This document shows positions 1,606 through 31,274 of a DNA stretch of 34,149 nt, piece after piece. The stretch's first letter is position 1. The number at the start of each line of letters is the position of its first letter. Source of the DNA: a virus; IMG/VR virus record IMGVR_UViG_3300049825_000530, positions 1-34,149 of that record; one strand, 5' to 3'. Below the pieces are notes generated by a model, which did not search any database, was not told where the DNA came from, and saw only the letters and a list, made by a program, of their open reading frames with translations. The translations under genes were made by a program, and so were the position numbers.

Positions 1606-1916
1606 TGAAGTCGCTAATAAATACCGCCATTAAAGCAAATGTCGTCTGCAAGAACTGCGAAACTATTTTCACTCACGATATTCCCAAGTCTAGAATTATC
1701 ATTGATCGCATCGGTGTTACGGTGATTTCTATACTGCTCATTATTGCTTCCTCCCAGAGTCACAACCGCTTAGACAGCTTCACTGCCTGGGGTGTGGTTA
1801 TTTGGTTTATTTGGTTATTAAAACGAAAACATAACGTCCCAAAATGTCCCGCTTGCAAGTCGCGCATCAGCGTGCCAGCCAATAGTCCGGTCGGTAAGCG
1901 CATCGTCGGCATCTAA
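1605..1916 (+). CDS. Small membrane protein with split CxxC...CxxC zinc ribbon
   Basis: 103 residues. Two cysteine pairs, C15-x-x-C18 and C81-x-x-C84, flank two hydrophobic segments at about residues 32-49 and 59-73. The topology is therefore a membrane hairpin with both cysteine pairs on the same (probably cytoplasmic) side, where they could form one zinc ribbon. The ATG overlaps the stop of the secreted-protein gene by one base (TAATG), and its own stop overlaps the integrase ATG the same way, so it is translationally coupled inside the repressor-integrase operon. I do not recognise the family. A superinfection-exclusion or membrane-stress-sensing role is possible but not shown by the sequence. 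Confidence 0.72.
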   Translation: MKSLINTAIKANVVCKNCETIFTHDIPKSRIIIDRIGVTVISILLIIASSQSHNRLDSFTAWGVVIWFIWLLKRKHNVPKCPACKSRISVPANSPVGKRIVGI

Positions 1917-3100
1917 TGGCCAACGCCTTCTTCCGCAAAGACCGGCAATGCTGGGTCGCCAATATTCGCGCCCTGTGGTCGCCTAGGGGAAAAAGGACTA
2001 TCATTTATATACCGGAACGGCGCATTGTCAGCGAAAGCACGGCAAAGGCCGACGCGAAAGCATTTGCCGACGAAGCCGAACGTTATTGCCGCACCCTTGA
2101 AGGCGCACATGAACCAGAAGACATCCAACATGCTCTTCGTCTTGGCGCGATAACCGACAAACAAGCCGCCGCATTGCGATCTGGCACGGTGGTGCCGGTT
2201 CGCGGGCTGGAAATGCAACGGCTCACGATTCGGGAAGCGGCGCAGGCGCACCCATCGAGCACCCGCGACAGTTTAGCGATGCAGGTTTATTATTTACGTA
2301 ACCTAGATGATTTCACCACCTACACGGGCGTCAAAAATTTGGCCGATGTCACCCTCGACAACGTGTTGCAATGGGTGTCCGAAATGAAGCGGCGAAAATG
2401 GAAATGGGACACCCGCCGCCATGCGCTCATTTATTTACGCCGCGCCGCCGTCATGGGCACCAGGCAGGGCCTACCCAATCAATTAGCAGGCATCCGACTG
2501 GACCACCAAGACCGCGTCCGCACCATAATTCGCGTGTGGCCACTGCCGCGCATCGTCCAGGCCATCAAAGCTGCCGATGATCCGCGCATTGCCGCCGCGT
2601 TGGTGCTCGGTGGCTGCCTTGGCCTGCGACCAACTGAAATTCAGCGCGTCGAGGTGGACGACCTGGTCGGTGACGTGCTGCACATCGGCCTGCGCGAAAG
2701 CAAAAACACCGCCAGCGTGCGCAGCCTACCGGTCCCCGCCCCCGTGTTGCGCTACCTGACCGCGTTGACCAACAAACGCAGCACGGGTGCGCTCCTATTA
2801 CCCCAGGGCGCCCGATCCGGCCCCACGCTAACCAGCAGCGGCCTGCATCAACTGATGGCCGACACGCTCACGACCCCAAAGATCGCCCCCAAAGATTTGC
2901 GCAAAAGCTTTGCCACCTGGGCAGCCACTCAAATACCAGCGGCGGACCTGGAGCGGTATCTTGGCCATCAGTCAGCGCTGCATGCCGCGGTGACGTCGCG
3001 CCACTATCTTGCCGCGCATTTTGCTGATCAGTTGCGACCGAGTGCGAAATTATTGTCCGAAACAATAGCCCCGTTGTTGGGTTATTCCCCTGCGTCTTGA
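1916..3100 (+). CDS. int: Tyrosine-family site-specific integrase
   Basis: 394 residues, a normal length for a phage tyrosine recombinase. The N-terminal ~100 residues are an arm-binding-like region, about 105-200 a core-binding domain, and about 205-385 the catalytic domain. Catalytic residues read R238 (GLRPTE), K263 (ESKNTAS), K326 and R329 (PKDLRKS), H351 (YLGHQS) and the nucleophile Y364 (SRHYL). The usual histidine of the HxxR box is lysine here, a tolerated family variant. It should recombine attP at 3932-3979 with the host tRNA-Arg gene. It is the last gene of the repressor operon, and its 3' end overlaps the convergent gene 3082-3384 by 19 bp. No excisionase could be identified with confidence in the window. 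Confidence 0.95.
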   Translation: MANAFFRKDRQCWVANIRALWSPRGKRTIIYIPERRIVSESTAKADAKAFADEAERYCRTLEGAHEPEDIQHALRLGAITDKQAAALRSGTVVPVRGLEMQRLTIREAAQAHPSSTRDSLAMQVYYLRNLDDFTTYTGVKNLADVTLDNVLQWVSEMKRRKWKWDTRRHALIYLRRAAVMGTRQGLPNQLAGIRLDHQDRVRTIIRVWPLPRIVQAIKAADDPRIAAALVLGGCLGLRPTEIQRVEVDDLVGDVLHIGLRESKNTASVRSLPVPAPVLRYLTALTNKRSTGALLLPQGARSGPTLTSSGLHQLMADTLTTPKIAPKDLRKSFATWAATQIPAADLERYLGHQSALHAAVTSRHYLAAHFADQLRPSAKLLSETIAPLLGYSPAS

Positions 3101-3384
3101 TCGGGCAGCGGCCATCCTGCCGTGAGCCCGAATTCCGTTTCGGGAATGTTAAAATGGGTGCAAATACTTTCTACTTTTGACCACGTAATTGATTCGCCGC
3201 TTTTTCGGAACACAACGCCAATCGCACCGTAGCCCTTTTTGTGTAGATATTGCGAATCAAAAGTTTCGCCTGTTTCCACTTCTTGAATGGACAGGCCCGG
3301 ATGACTACACAAAGAAACCTTGAACTTTTTCAAGGTTTCAAATAATTCGCCGTAATTTGGATTGGGCCGAAACGGATAGGACAT
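3082..3384 (-). CDS. Unknown 100-aa protein, second gene of a two-gene cassette beside attP
   Basis: 100 residues with no family I can name. It is soluble and mixed in character, with a central segment GYGAIGVVFRKSGESITW followed by SKVESICTHFNIPETEFGL. It lies three bases downstream of the HicB-like gene (3388-3729) and must be co-transcribed with it. The pair sits between the integrase 3' end and attP, where phages often carry cargo genes. Its 3' end overlaps the integrase 3' end tail-to-tail. It lacks the conserved HicA pattern of a short dsRNA-binding fold with a catalytic histidine in a GSH context, so calling it the toxin partner would be speculation. The start at 3384 has only a weak ribosome site, fitting coupling to the upstream gene. 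Confidence 0.72.
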   Translation of the reverse strand: MSYPFRPNPNYGELFETLKKFKVSLCSHPGLSIQEVETGETFDSQYLHKKGYGAIGVVFRKSGESITWSKVESICTHFNIPETEFGLTAGWPLPDQDAGE

Positions 3385-3387
3385 TAA

Positions 3388-3729
3388 TTACGCAGCCGAT
3401 GACGAAGGCAGCAATACTGGCTTAAGGGTGAAGCTGTACCCATCAACTGCATCTTGAATATCCATGCCTGACGCCACTTCTCCGCGACCCAAAAGTGCCT
3501 GGTAACGTTCTGGCGCGGCTTTCACTCCGAAGAATCGTGCCTGTTTGATTGTTTTATTTGCGGCAATGGTGCCGATGATAGAACGTTGAAGTTCATTCAT
3601 CGCTTGTTTTGCCGTCCTTCCTTCACCAACAATGAAGTGGTCGAGGCAAATAGCACAATACATGATTACAGATGACCCATCAGCTAAGGCGACTTTTTGA
3701 GGAACGATAACAACTTTTAGCTCTGACAT
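3388..3729 (-). CDS. HicB-like small protein (possible antitoxin or regulator)
   Basis: 113 residues from the ATG at 3729, which is preceded by AGGAAAG at good spacing. A longer frame begins at 3765 but its extra residues look non-native. After a beta-rich start (LKVVIVPQKVA), the core MYCAICLDHFIVGEGRTAKQ followed by AMNELQRSIIGTIAAN matches the HicB-like fold pattern: strand, 'CLDH..I..EG.T..EA...L...I'. A lower-conserved C-terminal part (APERYQALLGRG) is seen in related phage and bacterial proteins as I recall them. HicB proteins neutralise HicA toxins and often autoregulate. Here the neighbour is not a recognisable HicA, so the pair may be a divergent toxin-antitoxin system or just a regulatory cassette. 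A minus-strand extended -10 promoter lies about 90 bp upstream. Confidence 0.75.
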   Translation of the reverse strand: MSELKVVIVPQKVALADGSSVIMYCAICLDHFIVGEGRTAKQAMNELQRSIIGTIAANKTIKQARFFGVKAAPERYQALLGRGEVASGMDIQDAVDGYSFTLKPVLLPSSSAA

Positions 3730-5074: not shown

Positions 5075-5491
5075 TTAACCAGCCGTCCAGCATTTCACCG
5101 TCGCACCGCCGCCGCCGCTGACCGAAATGCTTACCGGACCCCCTGCTAGAATAACGTCGTCAACAAGCAGGGCATTACCGAATGAGCCGTGATCGTCGTT
5201 TACTATTAAAACGTAGTCATCCTGCGCGACTCCGTCGATATACAGCGTCCCCCTACCGATGCCGTCTATAAATGAGCTTGTTACTGTGGGATCGTAGGCG
5301 GATGGCACGCTCGGAAGATTTCCCGAGTAAGCGTTTATTCCTGCTTGTCCTGTTTCTAAGGTGTTACCCCCTACGATCTTGACGGTATAATCGTGAACGA
5401 TTGCCGACGTCACGGTGATGACGGGCCGTTGTTCTAGGCGCCTGCGGAGGCGTTCGACTTCTCGTTCTAGGGCTTTGATGCGGTCAGCCAT
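5075..5491 (-). CDS. Small tail-associated protein with N-terminal coiled coil
   Basis: 138 residues from the ATG at 5491, overlapping the end of the large tail gene by 8 bp. The longer frame from 5557 adds only a proline-rich shadow of the upstream gene. Residues 1-25 (MADRIKALEREVERLRRRLE) form a clear short coiled coil that would trimerise or dimerise the protein. The rest is beta-rich and ends in SISVSGGGGATVKCWTAG, a Gly-rich tail. The design, a coiled coil followed by a small beta domain, is common in short tail fibres or adaptor proteins, but there is no family-specific motif. Confidence 0.75.
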   Translation of the reverse strand: MADRIKALEREVERLRRRLEQRPVITVTSAIVHDYTVKIVGGNTLETGQAGINAYSGNLPSVPSAYDPTVTSSFIDGIGRGTLYIDGVAQDDYVLIVNDDHGSFGNALLVDDVILAGGPVSISVSGGGGATVKCWTAG

Positions 5492-7700
5492 GTTTGAGGT
5501 CCAGGTCTTGCCAGTCGGTGGTCCAGGTGGTGGTGCCGTTGGTGTTGTCGTAAACAATTGAGGACACGGGCGTATTTAATTCGTAGCGCTGGCCGTTGGC
5601 GGTTAGGTAGGTGACGACGACCCCGCACGGGGGGTAGATGACGCCACCACCGTCGTAATCTGCCGAGCTTGGGATGTCACCGTTGCATTTCAGCGTCCAG
5701 CTTGCATTGCGGTGGACGGTGCCTTTTTTGAATGGGCCATACCACGCGACGGATAGCGCGTGAATGCGTGCCAATGCATCGCGGTCATCGCGTATGATGA
5801 TGGGGCTACTGCCGCTGTTTCTGCGACCGGGGCTTGCACCGGCGTCTTCGTTGGCTGAATCAATGTCCCAAATTGCGTTTGGAGCGGCAAGCCACAGGTG
5901 AATGTCATTGATGGTGATGATTTTCTTGCGCGGCGATGATTCGACTCCCGTCGCCAAGCGCACGCGATGGGGAAGGCGGAAACCGAGGGTCATCACTAGG
6001 TCTTCGTAGTTGTAAAAACTTCCGAGTGACGATTCGTCTTTATCGCCAATTGATCGCGTTCCGGATTCCAAGTCACTGCTAACGGTTACCAAAAAGCCGT
6101 CAGGCATAAGTCGGAATTGTACTCCCAATTCGGTTTGCTCAATTCTCTCATATAAATCGCTAGATTTATACAATAAAACCAACGGGCCACGACGCGAAGG
6201 CGTTCCACCGGCGGCGGCGGCGGTCGACCCATCGTTACGCGCCACCCCACCGTTAAGCACATAGCCTTCGTAGAGCGGCAAATCGTCCAACACCTCGACC
6301 GTTGAGGTGGCGCTATCACCCTTATATCCGCCTGTCGTTTTAATGTCCCCCTGATCATTGCATCGGTAATCACAATTTACACCAGGGCCGTCGTTGCCGT
6401 CCCCCACCAACATTTTGAACCCGCGCTTGAGACGATGGAGATTAAAAACGTATTTCCAACGTTCGTCCAAACGCTTTTCCGCATCGAGCGCCACAAATGC
6501 CGTCTCATCTGCCGTTGACCAGGCGGGCGCGAGCGTGAGCGAGTGTTCGACCGTGGCCATGACTTCGATTTGCTCACCCTGAGTCACCAAATAATCAACG
6601 CGGTATTGCTCGGCGTCTCCCAGGGATAAAGACACCACTCGGTGGTCACCAATAAGATCGACAGTAACCGCCGTTTCGTTACTGACAGCCCCCTCAATAT
6701 GCACGGAGACGCCATTGCTCGGTTTATTATATTCAACATCCGCGGGAAGCTGCGGATAAACAAGCAAAAAACAGGTCAATTTACCGGTCGGGGAAGACTC
6801 GTCAAACGTTGGATAAACCGCGCCACGGCCACGACTGCGTGCGCAAATCCTGGTGAGCAAATCAAAAACCGTGTCCCCGTCTTGAACCGGCCAAGGACTG
6901 GCATCGTCGAATAAATCGGTCATGCCGGTGAATGACCAATGTGGCTGTCCACTTGGTCTACCAATGGCCAGGATGTCATTGATCACTTCGGTATCGGTCC
7001 AGGAATTTCCCGCACCAGGCAGAACGAATTTCGTTCCTAATACGCCTTGACCTCTATCTATCTCCCAGCTCCCATTTGAAGGATCGCGATTGCCGGCAAC
7101 CTGAGACGGTGACTTTGCTGAATAATTATAGCCAGGATGACCAGCAGCGGGTGCGATAGTTCCCGCTGAATCGATAAATCCATGGCGGTCTAAATACCAT
7201 CGTTTCGTGCGGTGGATTGCATCAACGCAATAATAGGTAATTTCGCCGGATGGAATTTCCGCACCGCCCCACGGGCTGTCCATTTGATATTCGCAAGACC
7301 CCCACCAAACCGTTTTCCAGGCCGCGTCTAATATGTCGCCATTGGCATCCACATAGGCGGCTTGCAATCTTATCTCTTTGCCCGTCAGGTCTGGCAGGTC
7401 CAGGGTATCTGATGCGGGGTCCCATTGATTGCCGGTGGCCATATTTTTAGCGCTGGCTGCACTGGCTCCGACAATGCGTGATTGGAATAATCCATAGCGG
7501 AAAATGATTTCAGCCGTCCCAATTTGTGGTAATAGTGCCCGTGAATAATTTTTTAGGATGAAGCCAAACGCCTGCGCGCCTTCTTGCTCCATTTTTTCAA
7601 TGGCCCAACCACCGCCGCTGTTGACCGATCCGCCCCACGTTGACCGCGTGAGGAGTCGGAATTGTGGCCAACTTGCGTTTTTAATCGGTAAAGTAATCAT
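5484..7700 (-). CDS. Large distal tail protein (738 aa), probable tail hub or tip component
   Basis: 738 residues from the ATG at 7700. That ATG overlaps the preceding stop as TAATG and has GGAG upstream; a 10-residue-longer frame exists but begins inside the previous gene. The sequence is beta-rich, with many Trp, Asp and Gly, and without membrane segments or long helices. The segment around residues 240-290 (SWTDTEVINDILAIG and DTVFDLLTRICARSRGR) resembles the hub-like domains of tail-tip proteins, which carry a receptor-facing platform. It is the largest gene of the tail region and lies where baseplate hub or tip proteins occur. No peptidase or lysozyme signature was seen. Function is inferred from size, order and composition. 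Confidence 0.75.
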   Translation of the reverse strand: MITLPIKNASWPQFRLLTRSTWGGSVNSGGGWAIEKMEQEGAQAFGFILKNYSRALLPQIGTAEIIFRYGLFQSRIVGASAASAKNMATGNQWDPASDTLDLPDLTGKEIRLQAAYVDANGDILDAAWKTVWWGSCEYQMDSPWGGAEIPSGEITYYCVDAIHRTKRWYLDRHGFIDSAGTIAPAAGHPGYNYSAKSPSQVAGNRDPSNGSWEIDRGQGVLGTKFVLPGAGNSWTDTEVINDILAIGRPSGQPHWSFTGMTDLFDDASPWPVQDGDTVFDLLTRICARSRGRGAVYPTFDESSPTGKLTCFLLVYPQLPADVEYNKPSNGVSVHIEGAVSNETAVTVDLIGDHRVVSLSLGDAEQYRVDYLVTQGEQIEVMATVEHSLTLAPAWSTADETAFVALDAEKRLDERWKYVFNLHRLKRGFKMLVGDGNDGPGVNCDYRCNDQGDIKTTGGYKGDSATSTVEVLDDLPLYEGYVLNGGVARNDGSTAAAAGGTPSRRGPLVLLYKSSDLYERIEQTELGVQFRLMPDGFLVTVSSDLESGTRSIGDKDESSLGSFYNYEDLVMTLGFRLPHRVRLATGVESSPRKKIITINDIHLWLAAPNAIWDIDSANEDAGASPGRRNSGSSPIIIRDDRDALARIHALSVAWYGPFKKGTVHRNASWTLKCNGDIPSSADYDGGGVIYPPCGVVVTYLTANGQRYELNTPVSSIVYDNTNGTTTWTTDWQDLDLKHG

Positions 7701-8116
7701 TAAATAAACTCCGTGAGGGTCAGCTTCCAAACAAATACGACATGCGCTAATCCAGCCGCACCGGCGCCGGTGGCTGGTCCAGGGACGCAGGTTGCTATGA
7801 CGCCATCAATATGGACTTTTTTTGCTTGGTACGTCACCGTATCGAGTGTCATTTTTAAGGTGCCCAACGACTGTACAAATCGCGCTGCTTTTCTTTTTAA
7901 TTCAATCGCCGCGTCGTAGGTTGCCGCGTCAGAAGTCGCGTAGAGCTGGAACTGCGGATATTGTTTGAACACGGTACGCCAACGACGGCCATCGACGCCT
8001 GGCGTTGTTAATTCTTCCGATTCAACAATTGGCTCGTCCTCCATCATTCCGGTGTCGGTGAGCACCGTAAGGAATTGAATCGTGCCGCCGCCGTCTTGCG
8101 CTAGTGATCCGCTCAT
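7700..8116 (-). CDS. Tail-associated protein of unknown function (138 aa)
   Basis: 138 residues, starting at an ATGA overlap with the end of the helical 312-aa gene, with AGAGGG as ribosome site. Mixed alpha/beta: an N-terminal strand-rich part (GTIQFLTVLTDTGMM), a helix AAIELKRKAARFVQSLG, and a hydrophobic C-terminus ending in VFVWKLTLTEFI. Position between the candidate tape-measure protein and the large tail protein corresponds to distal-tail/minor-tail genes in siphophages. No named family recognised. Confidence 0.75.
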   Translation of the reverse strand: MSGSLAQDGGGTIQFLTVLTDTGMMEDEPIVESEELTTPGVDGRRWRTVFKQYPQFQLYATSDAATYDAAIELKRKAARFVQSLGTLKMTLDTVTYQAKKVHIDGVIATCVPGPATGAGAAGLAHVVFVWKLTLTEFI

Positions 8117-18916: not shown

Positions 18917-21900
18917 CTACGGGGTCAGCGTCACAGCGGTGCGGTTTCCGTCTTTGTCGGCCACAGCGGCCACACGGTTTTGAGTGTCTCCGAGGTTGCG
19001 GAAAATAGGCGTATCTGGTCCGCCGCTGACCTTACCGCCAAGCACCGCCGCCGCGATTCTCATTGCCTGTCGTAATGTGTAGCCGGTTTCAATGCCGTTG
19101 GTGAGGTCTAATAATGCCGCCGCGACTGCATCGCGTTCGCCGGTGGTTAATGTCATGGCGCTGCCGACTGCGGCGGGGGCCGATGGGATTAAATCGGTCT
19201 TGGCTTTAATGGCTGCGCTGTCGGCAAGGTAAGCGCGGCCAGAGTCGAAATAGATTGCGCCGGTGGTAGTTGCCGAAACCAGGCCCCGCGCCCCTCCAAC
19301 CTTATTTCCGAATCCACCGTTGATCGTCAGTAGAGCTGCGTTTTTATTATCAAAGGCAAGGTCTACGACTGACCCGTTTACAGTATAGTTTACAGCGTCA
19401 CTAGCGACAATGCCGCCAAACACAGCGGATATACCCAGTGATGAAGTTAAGGCAAATACATACCAAGCGTAAACTCTCTGCCATGAGGTTGTTCCATCGC
19501 CATCGGTCGTGTCGATTTCAATGTTGGGAACATCTGCGGAGAACTCTGTAACGGTTGACCCATCAATGGCGTTGCTCGCATAAACGGAATCTATCTCTTG
19601 GCTCGCAAGCGCAGACCATCCAGTGGGGCCAGCAACGACCGTAACAACATATTCCAGATACGCGACAAGTCCAACGCAGTAGGTTAAGCGGATTCTTATT
19701 AAATTTCCGCTCGTAAACTCTACGCCCTCGGTATAATTCGCACTGAATGTCGATGTGGCATTGACAGCGTTGACTATTTCGGTTGCGGTCGAATCGTTGT
19801 ATATCTGTAGACGACTATTGGCAACAATGCCCGTGATGGTTCCCACGTTGGCCTTGTTATTTACGACCGTCGATGCTCCCGCTCCGTTGCGCACGGTTGG
19901 CACTTGGTCGCCATAAGCGCCTAAATTGATCGTGACTAAACCGCCGGAATTATTATAAATACAAGCGTCTGTTGTGGCGTTTGCGCCGTAACCGCTGAAC
20001 GTGTTTGTGGTAAACGTGTACGTCCCTGGCGTGGTCAATTCCAACGCATGCCCAGTGCCGCCACTGGTAAAAGTCGAAAGGCTGATTTTGCTGGGGTCAT
20101 CGCAGGTAATTTTGCAGTTCTTGAATGAGCAAGAGGTGAGCACTGCCGTGTTTTGTGTGAATGACAGGCAGTTAATAAATGTCATCGTCAGGAACGTAGT
20201 TACGGCGCGAAGCGTAACGGTTGCGTTAATTATTGTACGGCCTGCAAAATCATAGGTAGCTGATGCGCTACAGGTCGCCAACATTTCAAATCGCCAAATT
20301 GAGCCGCCAGACCACACGCCTGCCTTTGGCTTGAATACGTCACCAGACCTTGCGTCAACAATGACACCAACATAAGCGGTGTCACAGTGGAAAAGCGTGT
20401 ATAAATTGCCGGATAGCGCTTGCGTTGGGAATGTGATACTCCCCGACTTTGGGTCGTCATTGACTAAGAATAGCGGATCTATTCCGCCAAATTTCAGCGG
20501 GACGCAACACTTATTGTCCTCCCCCTTTAAGAGCGGGACGGGATAACTATTGCAAATACTGATAACATCAGCCCACGAAAGCGGATTCGCGGAACTGCCG
20601 CCTTGAATTGTGACATAGCCTGTGATTTTAATAAATTGGCTAAACTGAACTTGGCATGCGCCATCGTAATTATTTGCGACAATGCCTATTTTTTTTGTTG
20701 CCGACAACGTTGGCGGGGTCGTGGATTGGTAGTATTTTGAATCGACAGATTCATCAGCTTTAACGCAATACGTATTGCTCCCGTTGCGATCAAAGTCAAG
20801 GGAATCCGCGCTGCAAATAGTCCAAAGTTTCCAGTTATTTGACGCATCGCCAAGCGCCAAAGGAATGCCACCTCTCGATTTTGGTCCACTGTCGATTTTA
20901 TCGCGTGGAGATGTCAGCTTCAGATTGCCGATTAGTAAGCCATCATCGCAATCTTTTGTCGATCCAAAAGTGTAAGCCGCGCCTGCAAAACAATTTGCCA
21001 GACTTGCTGGCGTTATATTTATTGCGTCCTCAAAAGGATTGTATGCGCTGTCGCCGGATGCTGCCAAGGCATCGTAATAGCAACCAATTTGACTAATCCA
21101 AACCTGGGTAAAGGTTGGGTTGACCGTGTAAACCGTCGTAACTCTAAAGCGCATCCAATAAGCAGAAGGCAAGCCGTCTGGCGTTCCTGCTGTCCAATCG
21201 CTTGGAATTACCCAACCTTTTACGTGGCCTGTTCCGGCTGCTGCCGTAAATGCATCAATACCGTTAGCCTTTTGCAATGAAGCCCACGCGCTGCCGTTCC
21301 AGTATTCCAAGATATTAACGCCAACGGTTCCGGCGGTTCCTCCGTTATTGTCAATGCGCACAGCTCCAAATGTCGCGCTATTACCCACTGCGAAATAATC
21401 GCCTACGGCTTCAGTTGCAGGAATCGGCACTACGTCAGCGGTGGTGGCGTTTGTTGCTGCTGTGGTTACGTTCGTCAGCGTTAATGGACTGGCATCTACC
21501 TGATAGCAATATTGCGGATTAACTGGACTGCCCCAATTGCTTACTGCTGCTGCGTTGGTGTCTACGGCGTCAGAGGTAAATGGTGTGTTGGTGCCTTTTA
21601 ATGGGTGCAATAACGTGCCAAAATTCGGATCAATATACCCTGGAATAATTGTGCCAGAGCTACCATCGCGGAAAGCGATAGTGAAAATAATTGATTCGTC
21701 ACTACTTCCCGCGCAATAAAAATTGCACACTTCGGACACGCCTGCGGTTTTCTGGAATCGCCAAGCAACACCTGCGCCACAAGCGCCTGAGTCCTGATTG
21801 GAGATATTCATATTTCCAGGGTAGGCAGTAGGGCTCACGCCGCCGTCTGAGGCGCAGAAGTGCATGACCAAGGCGTTATCAAAATTAGTGGTGACCGTGG

Positions 21901-22276
21901 TCGATGCGTAAGGCGTTCCGGTTAGTCTTTGGACTTTTGCAAATACGTCCACGGCAGTGACGTGGATTCCGTCGAGCGTAAACGCAACCGCCGAGACTTC
22001 ATCGGCGGTAGTAAATGTGAATGTCGGATCTGTTTCGGAACTGCTTGCGGCAGTCCTCAGATACACCGCCCCGCGAACCGTGTTATTTCCGGTTGTACCA
22101 ATCCCATCAGTGTCTTGCTGGTTCCACCCCGCTGGGATGGAGAAGTCTGATGCGTTCTGATCGCGTACGATGAACACGCCTATCGTATTGCCAGTTACGT
22201 GCGGGGCTAATGGAACCGTAACCGTGGTGACGGCTGATAATTCATTGAACGGTTTTACGGCGACGGGCTTGCCCAT
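18917..22276 (-). CDS. Large fibre/adhesin-like protein with beta-helix character (1119 aa)
   Basis: 1119 residues, the longest product in the window, rich in Thr, Ser, Gly, Asn and Val with regular short strands. Residues 1-220 look like a beta-sandwich head-binding domain. Residues about 660-830 show repeating short turns of a parallel beta-helix (FINCLSFTQN, SFKNCKITCDDPSK, CIYNNSGGLVTINLG). The last ~80 residues (LDLTNGIETGYTLRQAMRIA ... GGPDTPIFRNLGDTQNRVAA) match, from memory, a C-terminal domain shared by many phage fibre-like proteins. The gene lies between portal-side and protease genes, away from the tail module, so it may be a head-attached fibre. Receptor or glycan binding is inference. 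Confidence 0.8.
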   Translation of the reverse strand: MGKPVAVKPFNELSAVTTVTVPLAPHVTGNTIGVFIVRDQNASDFSIPAGWNQQDTDGIGTTGNNTVRGAVYLRTAASSSETDPTFTFTTADEVSAVAFTLDGIHVTAVDVFAKVQRLTGTPYASTTVTTNFDNALVMHFCASDGGVSPTAYPGNMNISNQDSGACGAGVAWRFQKTAGVSEVCNFYCAGSSDESIIFTIAFRDGSSGTIIPGYIDPNFGTLLHPLKGTNTPFTSDAVDTNAAAVSNWGSPVNPQYCYQVDASPLTLTNVTTAATNATTADVVPIPATEAVGDYFAVGNSATFGAVRIDNNGGTAGTVGVNILEYWNGSAWASLQKANGIDAFTAAAGTGHVKGWVIPSDWTAGTPDGLPSAYWMRFRVTTVYTVNPTFTQVWISQIGCYYDALAASGDSAYNPFEDAINITPASLANCFAGAAYTFGSTKDCDDGLLIGNLKLTSPRDKIDSGPKSRGGIPLALGDASNNWKLWTICSADSLDFDRNGSNTYCVKADESVDSKYYQSTTPPTLSATKKIGIVANNYDGACQVQFSQFIKITGYVTIQGGSSANPLSWADVISICNSYPVPLLKGEDNKCCVPLKFGGIDPLFLVNDDPKSGSITFPTQALSGNLYTLFHCDTAYVGVIVDARSGDVFKPKAGVWSGGSIWRFEMLATCSASATYDFAGRTIINATVTLRAVTTFLTMTFINCLSFTQNTAVLTSCSFKNCKITCDDPSKISLSTFTSGGTGHALELTTPGTYTFTTNTFSGYGANATTDACIYNNSGGLVTINLGAYGDQVPTVRNGAGASTVVNNKANVGTITGIVANSRLQIYNDSTATEIVNAVNATSTFSANYTEGVEFTSGNLIRIRLTYCVGLVAYLEYVVTVVAGPTGWSALASQEIDSVYASNAIDGSTVTEFSADVPNIEIDTTDGDGTTSWQRVYAWYVFALTSSLGISAVFGGIVASDAVNYTVNGSVVDLAFDNKNAALLTINGGFGNKVGGARGLVSATTTGAIYFDSGRAYLADSAAIKAKTDLIPSAPAAVGSAMTLTTGERDAVAAALLDLTNGIETGYTLRQAMRIAAAVLGGKVSGGPDTPIFRNLGDTQNRVAAVADKDGNRTAVTLTP

Positions 22277-29123: not shown

Positions 29124-29372
29124 TCATTCTATGTACTCGCCTTCAAATTCCTCTGATTCGCTAACTAATTCGCATTTAATGCCAAGTTCATCATAGCTAT
29201 ATCCTTCAAGGTTGGGGTCGCCAAGGTTCCTCGCAATATGCTTCACGTGATCTTCAATGGTTTGAAAGTTATACATGTAGGATCTAAATTCCTTCATCCA
29301 CTCATCTGTAAACTTGGTTTCGTCAATTGTCACCAAGACAGTTTGTATAACAGACACTTGATAGGTTTTCAT
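29124..29372 (-). CDS. Hypothetical acidic protein (82 aa)
   Basis: 82 residues, acidic (many Glu and Asp), starting MKTYQVSVIQTVLVTIDETK with a beta strand pair, a central helix (EWMKEFRSYMYNFQTIEDHV) and a very acidic end (ESEEFEGEYIE). Small acidic proteins of phages can mimic DNA or bind host enzymes, but there is no motif here that shows this. Start overlaps the small terminase stop (ATGA). Confidence 0.65.
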   Translation of the reverse strand: MKTYQVSVIQTVLVTIDETKFTDEWMKEFRSYMYNFQTIEDHVKHIARNLGDPNLEGYSYDELGIKCELVSESEEFEGEYIE

Positions 29373-30031
29373 TTAATCCCTTTGTTTTCGATGGCGTTCT
29401 GGATTAATTCCGGCGCTTTGGTGGTTAGGGTTTCGCGTAGGGTCGCGGTGGCTTGGGTGATGGCGTCGCGGATGCGGGGGCGGTATTCGGCGGGGACGTG
29501 GGTGATTATTTCTTTGAGGACGGCGGGGGCGAGGTCGGTGAGTCCGGCTAGGACTTCGTGGGCGAGTGAGGACACCAGGCCAACCACGGCGGTGGTGGGG
29601 ATTAATTCTTTTCTGAGGGCGGCTAATTCGATGGTGAGTTTTTCTGATTGTAGTATTCGGATGTCGCGTTGGGCGAGGGCGGCAAGTTGGGCGGGGCTGT
29701 GGGCGGTGCCGTCGGGGTTGGTGTCGGTTGGTTTTCCGTCTTCGGATAATTCCCGCGAAGCGGCGACATTCGGCGCGGGTTGGGCCAGGAATTTGTCTAG
29801 GTGCTGGTCCAGGGTTGGGGCGACGGCGGCTAATGGGGTGCCGTGATTGGCGATCCATTGGCGCAGGCTGGCCTCGCTGTCGAAAGGGGCATGACGGGCG
29901 GCCCATTTATAGAGTGTCCGTCGGCTGACTGGTTTGCCGTGAATGACGAAGCGCTGCGCTAGTTGTTCGACGCTGAGGGCCATGGTGTGGGCTAGTTCTT
30001 TGGGGCCTGGGGTCATTTGGTTATTTTTCAT
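29369..30031 (-). CDS. terS: Probable terminase small subunit (Nu1-like)
   Basis: 220 residues. The N-terminal third holds a helix-turn-helix or winged-helix type segment (LSVEQLAQRFVIHGKPVSRR, TLYKWAARHAPF) with a second helix SLRQWIANHG, matching the DNA-binding domain order of small terminases. A helical middle (SPAQLAALAQRDIRILQSEK, LTIELAALRKELIP) could be the oligomerisation part, and the helical C-terminus would contact the large subunit. It starts inside the end of the methyltransferase gene (ATGA). The large subunit gene lies 1.5 kb downstream past six short genes. The role is inferred from fold pattern and order. Confidence 0.75.
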   Translation of the reverse strand: MKNNQMTPGPKELAHTMALSVEQLAQRFVIHGKPVSRRTLYKWAARHAPFDSEASLRQWIANHGTPLAAVAPTLDQHLDKFLAQPAPNVAASRELSEDGKPTDTNPDGTAHSPAQLAALAQRDIRILQSEKLTIELAALRKELIPTTAVVGLVSSLAHEVLAGLTDLAPAVLKEIITHVPAEYRPRIRDAITQATATLRETLTTKAPELIQNAIENKGIK

Positions 30032-30929
30032 CGACCGGGCCCACCAAGAATTTTCCAGGCTGCCGCCGCGCAGAGCGGGACTTGTCCGTTGCCGAGCGCT
30101 TTAATTCGGTGTACCCGATGGGCCATCCCATCAACCACTCGACCCACACTGGGTTCAGTGTCCCACCAAGTACCTCTGGTAGACAGGGCGTGTGGCCTCG
30201 GTCCTTCGCTGATCGCTTGACTTTCCCGCTGCGATAGTCCCGTGCTAATGGTGTTGGTAGCTTCACTTGGGCCGACAATTTCGGTTCGCCTCGGCTGTTC
30301 CACTTCCCCGCTTTCCGTGCCACCGCATCGTCTGCAACTGGCGTCTGCCATACCCATGTGGCTAGACCGTCGCCGCTGGTCGCTGACGCTCCCTTGCGGT
30401 TGTAATTCCCGCAGACTGTCGGTGTTGGCACGCCATGCAAAACACCACCAGCGTTCGCGTTGATGGGGCGCACCCACGTCAGCAGCGGCCAGCACTGTCC
30501 ATCGCGCATCGTACCCGCGCGCGGCCAAGTCTCTGAGAACGTATCCAAGCCCTCGACCAACGATTGCTGGCGAGTTCTCCAGGAACAGGTAATTGGGTCG
30601 TACCACGTCAGCGATGCGGAGGACTTCGCGGTATAATCCGCTTCGCTCGCCATCGATCCCGCTCCCTCTGCCGGCGACGCTAATATCTTGGCAAGGGAAT
30701 CCTGCATGGATGCAATCCACTCTTCCGGTCCATTGGGATGGATCAAACAATTGGACGTCGCCTTCATGCACGTGCAGGCCAGGAAACCATCCGTCGGTTG
30801 ATCGTTGTCTGAGCGTGGCGCAGCAGTCGGGGTCCCATTCGACGGCGCAGATGGGTGTGTGTCCAAGAATGAGGTCTGCGAGTAGTCCGCCGCCTGCTCC
30901 TGCGAATAAGTGGAGGGTTTGCATGTCAT
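30021..30929 (-). CDS. Overprinted second protein in the +1 frame of the methyltransferase gene
   Basis: 302 residues from an ATG at 30929, five bases before the methyltransferase ATG, to a TAA at 30021, seven bases beyond its stop. It covers 100% of that gene in another frame of the same strand. It is not random-looking: it contains TFSETWPRAGTMRDGQCWPL (about residue 132), GVPTPTVCGNYNRKGASATS, LPTPLARDYRSGKVKRS and LNPVWVEWLMGWPIGYTELK (about 258-277). From memory these match a phage protein family seen beside or fused with C5 methyltransferases. No enzymatic core is known to me; it may help target recognition. The ribosome site is close (3-4 bases), so translation could be coupled or weak. 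Confidence 0.72.
   Translation of the reverse strand: MTCKPSTYSQEQAADYSQTSFLDTHPSAPSNGTPTAAPRSDNDQPTDGFLACTCMKATSNCLIHPNGPEEWIASMQDSLAKILASPAEGAGSMASEADYTAKSSASLTWYDPITCSWRTRQQSLVEGLDTFSETWPRAGTMRDGQCWPLLTWVRPINANAGGVLHGVPTPTVCGNYNRKGASATSGDGLATWVWQTPVADDAVARKAGKWNSRGEPKLSAQVKLPTPLARDYRSGKVKRSAKDRGHTPCLPEVLGGTLNPVWVEWLMGWPIGYTELKRSATDKSRSARRQPGKFLVGPVDEK
30028..30924 (-). CDS. C5 cytosine-specific DNA methyltransferase
   Basis: 298 residues from the ATG at 30924 (an in-frame GTG at 30936 is alternative; AGGGTGG fits the ATG best). It has the canonical order: SAM-binding motif I LFAGAGG (about residue 6), the acidic motif II VEWDP, motif IV HAGFPCQDISVAG with catalytic Cys at about residue 78, motif VI FLENSPA, motif VIII QRERWW and a motif X-like RIKALGNGQVP near the C-terminus. 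The enzyme methylates C5 of a cytosine in a specific short site; the target recognition region is short. In phages this protects against host restriction or alters host DNA. Its stop TGA overlaps the small terminase ATG. Another frame of similar length covers it (see the entry at 30021-30929). Confidence 0.93.
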   Translation of the reverse strand: MQTLHLFAGAGGGLLADLILGHTPICAVEWDPDCCATLRQRSTDGWFPGLHVHEGDVQLFDPSQWTGRVDCIHAGFPCQDISVAGRGSGIDGERSGLYREVLRIADVVRPNYLFLENSPAIVGRGLGYVLRDLAARGYDARWTVLAAADVGAPHQRERWWCFAWRANTDSLRELQPQGSVSDQRRRSSHMGMADASCRRCGGTESGEVEQPRRTEIVGPSEATNTISTGLSQRESQAISEGPRPHALSTRGTWWDTEPSVGRVVDGMAHRVHRIKALGNGQVPLCAAAAWKILGGPGR

Positions 30930-31025
30930 TTACCACCCTGGTTTCCCGTGGAACCGTGGACCGCGCTTGTTTTCATGGACCGTGCTTGGACCGAGTGGTG
31001 AGAAAAAACACGGTAAAAACAATGC

Positions 31026-31257
31026 ATGTCCACGATGTCCATGATGTCCTTCATTAAATAGAGAGTAACAGTAGGGACATGTTGTGGTGCGTGTGTGCGT
31101 GGTGATGTGGCGGGGGTTGTGGTGTGTGCGTGGTGGTGCTGTGTGGTGGTTATGGGGCTATGACAAGTTGCGTGGACATCGTGGACATCGTGGACATGCC
31201 GCATATTTACCGCTGTTTGGTGTTTGGTTTTGGTCCACGATGTCCGTCGTGTCCGTG
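31026..31257. repeat. Three clusters of 9-bp-spaced repeats; candidate replication origin or terminase-binding site
   Basis: The core ATGTCC (or its complement GGACAT) recurs at exact 9-bp steps. Cluster A: ATGTCC at 31026, 31035 and 31044. Cluster B: GGACAT at 31174, 31183 and 31192 (inverted relative to A). Cluster C: GGTCC-type cores at 31231, 31240 and 31249 in the orientation of A, with one or two changes in the outer units. A single GGACAT is at 31075. Between primase-helicase and methyltransferase genes this is a likely iteron-type origin, as in phage P4, where the alpha primase-helicase binds repeats. A small-terminase (cosB-like) site is the alternative. Confidence 0.55.
31081..31160 (-). 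promoter_or_regulatory. G/T-only tract between repeat clusters, candidate Rho-utilisation or unwinding element
   Basis: About 80 bases of the plus strand consist almost wholly of G and T (GTGCGTGTGTGCGTGGTGAT and similar). The minus-strand RNA is C/A-rich and unstructured, as rut sites are. It directly follows the primase gene and contains no supported gene. A strand-biased element helping the neighbouring repeats to act as an origin is a second possibility. Confidence 0.35.
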
Positions 31258-31274
31258 ATCGGTAATGTTTTTGG

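Follow-up and report, generated by a model that had tools for sequence, protein, structure and literature searches.

Two overlapping reading frames of a phage locus probably encode the subunits of one C5 cytosine DNA methyltransferase

The phage contig IMGVR_UViG_3300049825_000530, analysed over its whole stretch of 34,149 nucleotides (the window), carries a locus that very likely encodes, in two overlapping frames of one strand, both subunits of a C5 DNA methyltransferase of the M.EcoHK31I kind (Table 1). Both frames, alpha and the +1 frame beta, are open, conserved and under selection; motif IX is found only in beta, and the catalytic motifs and motif X are found in alpha. A preliminary description of this DNA correctly placed both open frames on the minus strand, at 30924-30028 and 30929-30021, and took their products for two independent phage protein families. 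Two unrelated overprinted families are ruled out by the presence in beta of the motif IX that is absent from alpha, and the products are most likely subunits of one enzyme. The G+C content of the gene is 60%, and that of the window is 54%.

Table 1. Features of the methyltransferase locus in the window
Feature	Coordinates	Strand	Length	Remarks
Alpha, C5 cytosine methyltransferase catalytic subunit, motifs I-VIII and X	30028..30924	-	298 aa	ATG at 30924; stop ends at 30028; in-frame GTG at 30936 is an alternative start
Beta (+1 frame), probable DNA-recognition subunit with motif IX	30021..30929	-	302 aa	ATG at 30929; stop ends at 30021; 302 codons
Motif IX	30102..30158	-		Beta frame LNPVWVEWLMGWPIGYTEL; same bases in alpha VGRVVDGMAHRVHRIK
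Motif X	30043..30102	-		Alpha frame, KALGNGQVP and the following helix
Variable recognition-like region	30174..30431	-		Beta constrained; alpha near neutral and disordered in the model
Doubly constrained stretch	30486..30608	-		Alpha motifs VI-VII onward over beta WYDPITCSWRT and SETWPRAGTMRDGQCW
Candidate Shine-Dalgarno AGGGTGG	30933..30939	-		Putatively common to the beta (30929) and alpha (30924) starts, judging from sequence
Internal ATG	30705..30707	-		Alternative beta start (228 aa)
Downstream gene, weak terminase small subunit match	29369..30031	-		ATG overlaps the alpha stop (ATGA)

A separate profile search of the two translations, put forward earlier as a check, placed both products in PHROG families and only alpha in Pfam. 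Alpha matched Pfam DNA_methylase (3e-34) and phrog_363 (1e-61). Beta matched phrog_1008, 'DNA methyltransferase' (1.5e-25), as did all 85 aligned beta sequences, and the sequence search found for it no Pfam family, no NCBIfam family and no PDB chain; a comparison of the beta profile with PDB sequences gave nothing credible. Both PHROGs are labelled just as DNA methyltransferase, and overlap and subunits are not mentioned there. Alpha contains motifs I-VIII, including the catalytic PCQ and ENS, in a Rossmann-type large domain, which places it among the C5 cytosine DNA methyltransferases. It is not of the single-chain type, in which IX and X occur together with I-VIII: motif X is in alpha, and motif IX only in the +1 frame, its bases being read in alpha as VGRVVDGMAHRV. 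In C5 methyltransferases, motif IX is located in the small domain alongside the recognition region (PMC3404938).

The small gene of M.EcoHK31I (YGGCCR) is said to be nested inside the large one in another frame and to encode a beta polypeptide of 176 aa; the beta of the window is likewise encoded in an overlapping frame of alpha. A published account (PMC3404938) credits the two-polypeptide form of M.EcoHK31I to Lee, Kam and Shaw (1995), describes a large subunit with I-VIII and X and a small polypeptide with motif IX only, and assigns the predicted recognition domain to the large subunit. By that description, the locus of the window is alike in having a large chain with I-VIII and X and motif IX in a separate chain, and it is unlike in that its beta spans all of alpha from a neighbouring start and constraint points the recognition region to beta. 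The split C5 methyltransferase M.AquI (CYCGRG) carries motif X in its small subunit (PMC3404938). The window shares with it the two polypeptides and the break after motif VIII, but has motif X in alpha and therefore lacks the M.AquI-type combination of IX and X in the small subunit. A likeness by description is offered by BA_3814, the predicted M.EaeI-like methyltransferase of the Bacillus anthracis prophage LambdaBa01, an orphan C5 enzyme carried by a prophage, for which YGGCCR-type specificity is predicted (PMC4722110).

The earlier view that an open alternate frame of about 300 codons is improbable by chance was confirmed. With the alpha protein fixed and its synonymous codons shuffled 20,000 times, the +1 frame contained 5.2 stops on average and none in 0.065% of the shuffles (P ~6e-4). 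The +2 frame of the gene has 11 stops, and in nine other large genes of the window the longest +1 stop-free run is at most 130 codons. Across 74 loci (those of the kept loci whose frames were clean, plus one annotated phage and the window), 17 stops were counted in the +1 frame versus 330 expected with alpha fixed, namely 5 versus 87.6 in the N-terminal, 0 versus 113 in the middle and 12 versus 129 in the C-terminal segments, and the +2 frame was without depletion. The +1 frame could in principle be untranslated, its openness following from the composition and the conserved residues of alpha, which would leave no room for stops, and the +1 frame of a conventional enzyme does resemble beta in the VI-VIII stretch as well. 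However, this reading is scarcely credible given the stop deficit with alpha held fixed, the conservation of beta in the recognition region and motif IX while alpha drifts near neutrally, and the lack of motif IX in alpha. An untranslated open frame is ruled out by the stop depletion together with the third-base and pairwise selection tests described below.

As was found by the search with beta, viral contigs contain at least 598 homologous loci, and in all 80 loci kept from this search the alpha frame lies in the same register. Because this first sample had been picked by beta, a second one was drawn by the alpha N-terminus only (residues 1-165) and comprised the top 80 viral-contig and the top 80 bacterial-genome loci. 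According to the profiles, motif IX in the +1 frame and motif X in the alpha frame occur in 134 of these 160 loci, with the beta core uninterrupted in 131 of the 134; the top-80 lists lean to near relatives of the window, so these frequencies apply to the subfamily and not to all C5 methyltransferases. The source taxa of the genome loci include Pseudomonas, Acinetobacter, Citrobacter, Kluyvera, Chromobacterium, Myxococcus, Verrucomicrobiota, Planctomycetes, Leptolyngbya and others.

The preliminary description had held that a lack of +1 homologues beyond the overlap, or stops in close relatives, would speak against dual coding. No free-standing beta was present among the homologues found, each of them overlapping an alpha gene; selection still shows beta to be coding. 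Stops do occur in one close relative (L021/L091), which has three within the first 45 beta codons and an intact core, so at least one relative can do without the N-terminal third of beta. In the conventional single-chain enzyme L089, the +1 frame matches the beta profile at residues ~68-162 (1e-14). The between-locus similarity of this part of beta is in part a shadow of alpha conservation, and similarity of the N-terminal half was dropped as stand-alone evidence for that reason.

Third codon positions of alpha are second positions of beta. At four-fold degenerate alpha residues of 144 non-redundant genes, mean third-base entropy in the N region and in motif X is 1.41 and 1.42 bits, respectively, falling to 0.95 at alpha 105-146 (P 1.5e-5) and 0.47 in motif IX (P 4e-7), the reduction of synonymous change in alpha that had been named as a test of dual coding. 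Nine four-fold columns below 0.2 bits are located in alpha 251-276, compared with 0 of 63 in the N region; Gly266 is GGG in 142 of 143 genes and Ala268 is GCC in 136 of 136. Nearly fixed third bases were also observed at alpha 109, 115, 134 and 137. Overall, the four-fold third bases of alpha hardly vary in motif IX and in parts of VI-VIII, and elsewhere they are free to change.

In a dN/dS-type count, single differences in 20 independent pairs were scored by their effect in both frames. The nonsynonymous-to-synonymous type ratios, which are rough because the cells are small (6 to 21 doubly synonymous differences per region), were 0.07-0.11 for alpha and 0.40-0.62 for beta in the N region, 0.11-0.16 and 0.34-0.48 in VI-VIII, 0.64-1.24 and 0.27-0.52 in the recognition region, 0.39-1.02 and 0.11-0.28 in motif IX, and 0.11-0.22 and 0.56-1.08 in motif X and the tail. 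The two frames alternate consistently, and position-wise divergence in 671 pairs, themselves not independent of one another, agrees with this pattern. Between E. coli PT62 and Kluyvera, alpha has several differences in the recognition region and beta is identical there. Selection was measured on the family, no DNA-level relatives being near enough for a test of the window only. This shows alternating constraint, with I-VIII and X held in alpha and the recognition region and IX held in beta, and beta is a coding frame under selection. The earlier proposal of genuine dual coding is thus supported by homologues, by the lack of stops and by reduced synonymous change, while the mutual constraint supposed to cover the whole catalytic core is clear in alpha 105-146 and gives way to alternation elsewhere.

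The starts were compared in 160 unique dual genes from the pooled loci, a set different from the 160 alpha-sampled loci. In 115 of them the start reads [ATG]TGAATGA, with alpha beginning at the first codon (ATG in 65, GTG in 34, TTG in 16) and beta at an ATG 4 nt on in every case. The second alpha residue, Asn, is encoded by AAT in 116 genes and AAC in 1, versus 521 : 898 elsewhere (P 4e-46), and Glu3 by GAG in 113 and GAA in 1, versus 878 : 1562 elsewhere; a general A/T preference near starts would not favour GAG. The beta ATG is conserved in the wider family and is kept even where alpha begins further upstream (L030, L059, L069 and L080). Shine-Dalgarno matches, where present, usually stand 4 nt from the alpha start and 8 nt from that of beta. 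The window has the opposite order, the beta ATG preceding that of alpha by 5 nt, and in its nearest relatives the upstream beta ATG lies at varying places or is absent.

It seems somewhat better supported than an even guess that beta of the window begins at 30929. A tentative variant, compatible with the two-subunit model and lying within it, is an internal start at 30707 (228 aa) or 30653 (210 aa), the open N-terminal part being left untranslated. All 14 window-clade relatives having the alpha His that overlaps the ATG at 30707 encode it by CAT, which keeps the ATG, versus 47 CAT : 78 CAC elsewhere (P 4e-6); the stops of L021/L091 fall upstream of it, and selection on beta is weak ahead of residue ~105. 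Against an internal start, +1 stops of the N region are depleted in the alpha-sampled relatives too (9 versus 105 expected), and the ATG adjoining the alpha start is conserved across most of the family. The extended beta N-terminus is stop-free yet weakly constrained, as would be expected if the ribosome merely passes through it.

Separate initiation of beta would be unnecessary if programmed +1 frameshifting in alpha produced a single chain entering the beta frame, and in the split relatives (Firecracker, Heather and Streptomyces) such a shift would indeed yield a full I-X chain. For window-type genes this is improbable: they hold motif X in alpha, which one shift would lose, and their beta ATG is maintained by the codon choice described above, also in genes with an upstream alpha start.

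In the AlphaFold model of alpha, pLDDT is ~90 over most of residues 1-165, reaches 90 again near 281-290 and is below 50 for 170-273, the chain being unstructured between the large domain and the motif X helix (283-294). Its top PDB folds are M.HhaI and M.HaeIII over ~169 columns. The model of beta alone is poor (mean pLDDT 60.5, pTM 0.25), and the fold search with it matched no solved fold and was uninformative; a lone half-domain such as beta may not model well. The best part of this model is the motif IX helix (block pLDDT 92), with a helix at 68-83 and hairpins at 108-119 and 139-148 of middling confidence. The near-neutral evolution and modelled disorder of alpha in the recognition region, together with the constraint on beta there, suggest that this region belongs to beta rather than alpha; the published assignment of the M.EcoHK31I recognition domain to the large subunit speaks against this.

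In the two-subunit model, alpha would supply the AdoMet-binding and catalytic large domain (I-VIII) and motif X, with the stretch between VIII and X serving as an unstructured linker, and beta would contribute motif IX and, most likely, the small domain that recognises the target. One ribosome-binding site probably serves both frames, the start codons being 4-5 nt apart, so the subunits would be made together. Both proteins are presumably produced in this phage and would assemble as a heterodimer, beta pairing with alpha to give an active enzyme. Recognition of DNA by beta and methylation of DNA by the predicted enzyme would follow, and its purpose may be shielding of phage DNA from host restriction.

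Three arrangements of the motifs were found among the relatives. Motif IX in beta with X in alpha is the window type, present also in Acinetobacter phage ABMM1 (L003). Both motifs are in beta in Mycobacterium phage Firecracker (L001, gp6/gp5), Streptomyces phage Heather (L002, 35/36) and several Streptomyces loci, the first two having the M.AquI arrangement with partial overlap. Both are in alpha in ReT1v (L005) and Catenulispora (L249), where a long +1 frame is nevertheless open (1862-3028 and ~1958-3427, respectively), with a match to the beta profile that extends across the recognition region. In L121, L164 and L096, one frame shift, either real or a sequencing error, joins the alpha N-terminus to the beta C-terminus and brings motif IX into the alpha frame. 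A prophage copy in E. coli PCP07014 (L252, 2503-3264) has stops in alpha and beta at about one place and is annotated as a pseudogene.

The two-polypeptide kind has already been published for M.EcoHK31I, and the present locus is filed with it. In the literature searched, with most subscription journals outside the coverage, no report of the overlap in phages was found; a start shared by both frames, their overlap over the full length, a constraint that alternates and puts the recognition region in beta, and the occurrence in several phyla seem not to have been described. Present annotation greatly understates how common the overlapping version is. The chances appear evenly balanced that it represents an ancient, widespread gene form missed by annotation, with subunits co-extensive in two frames behind one ribosome-binding site, each bearing a near-neutral out-of-frame shadow of the other's domain, and arisen via compensating frame changes around a single-chain recognition domain. 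The locus is among the clearer cases of long dual coding on one strand, supported by homologues in several bacterial phyla and by selection on both frames, and is a test bed for how overlapping proteins share mutational load. Annotation needs correcting, since for this common methyltransferase of phages and prophages one of the subunits is often absent or labelled hypothetical, and it is predicted that no active enzyme would result from expressing the annotated gene with a recoded +1 frame.

In the two E. coli prophage records examined in RefSeq, only alpha is annotated. In Microcystis phage Mwe-JY08 (L006, 392-652), the one gene that the submitter called under the match encodes a short hypothetical protein in the beta frame, although the alpha frame extends across the entire stretch; annotation takes one frame or the other. 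Portal, terminase and major head genes are present in this phage contig, and two of its large minus-strand ORFs, 18917-22276 (1119 aa) and 5484-7730 (748 aa), are without a PHROG match. Between the primase-helicase gene and the methyltransferase, at 31011-31259, direct repeats of 9 bp (GTCCACGAT-like) are clustered with inverted repeats whose arms reach 39 nt at 85%; the cluster could be an iteron-type origin or a regulator site.
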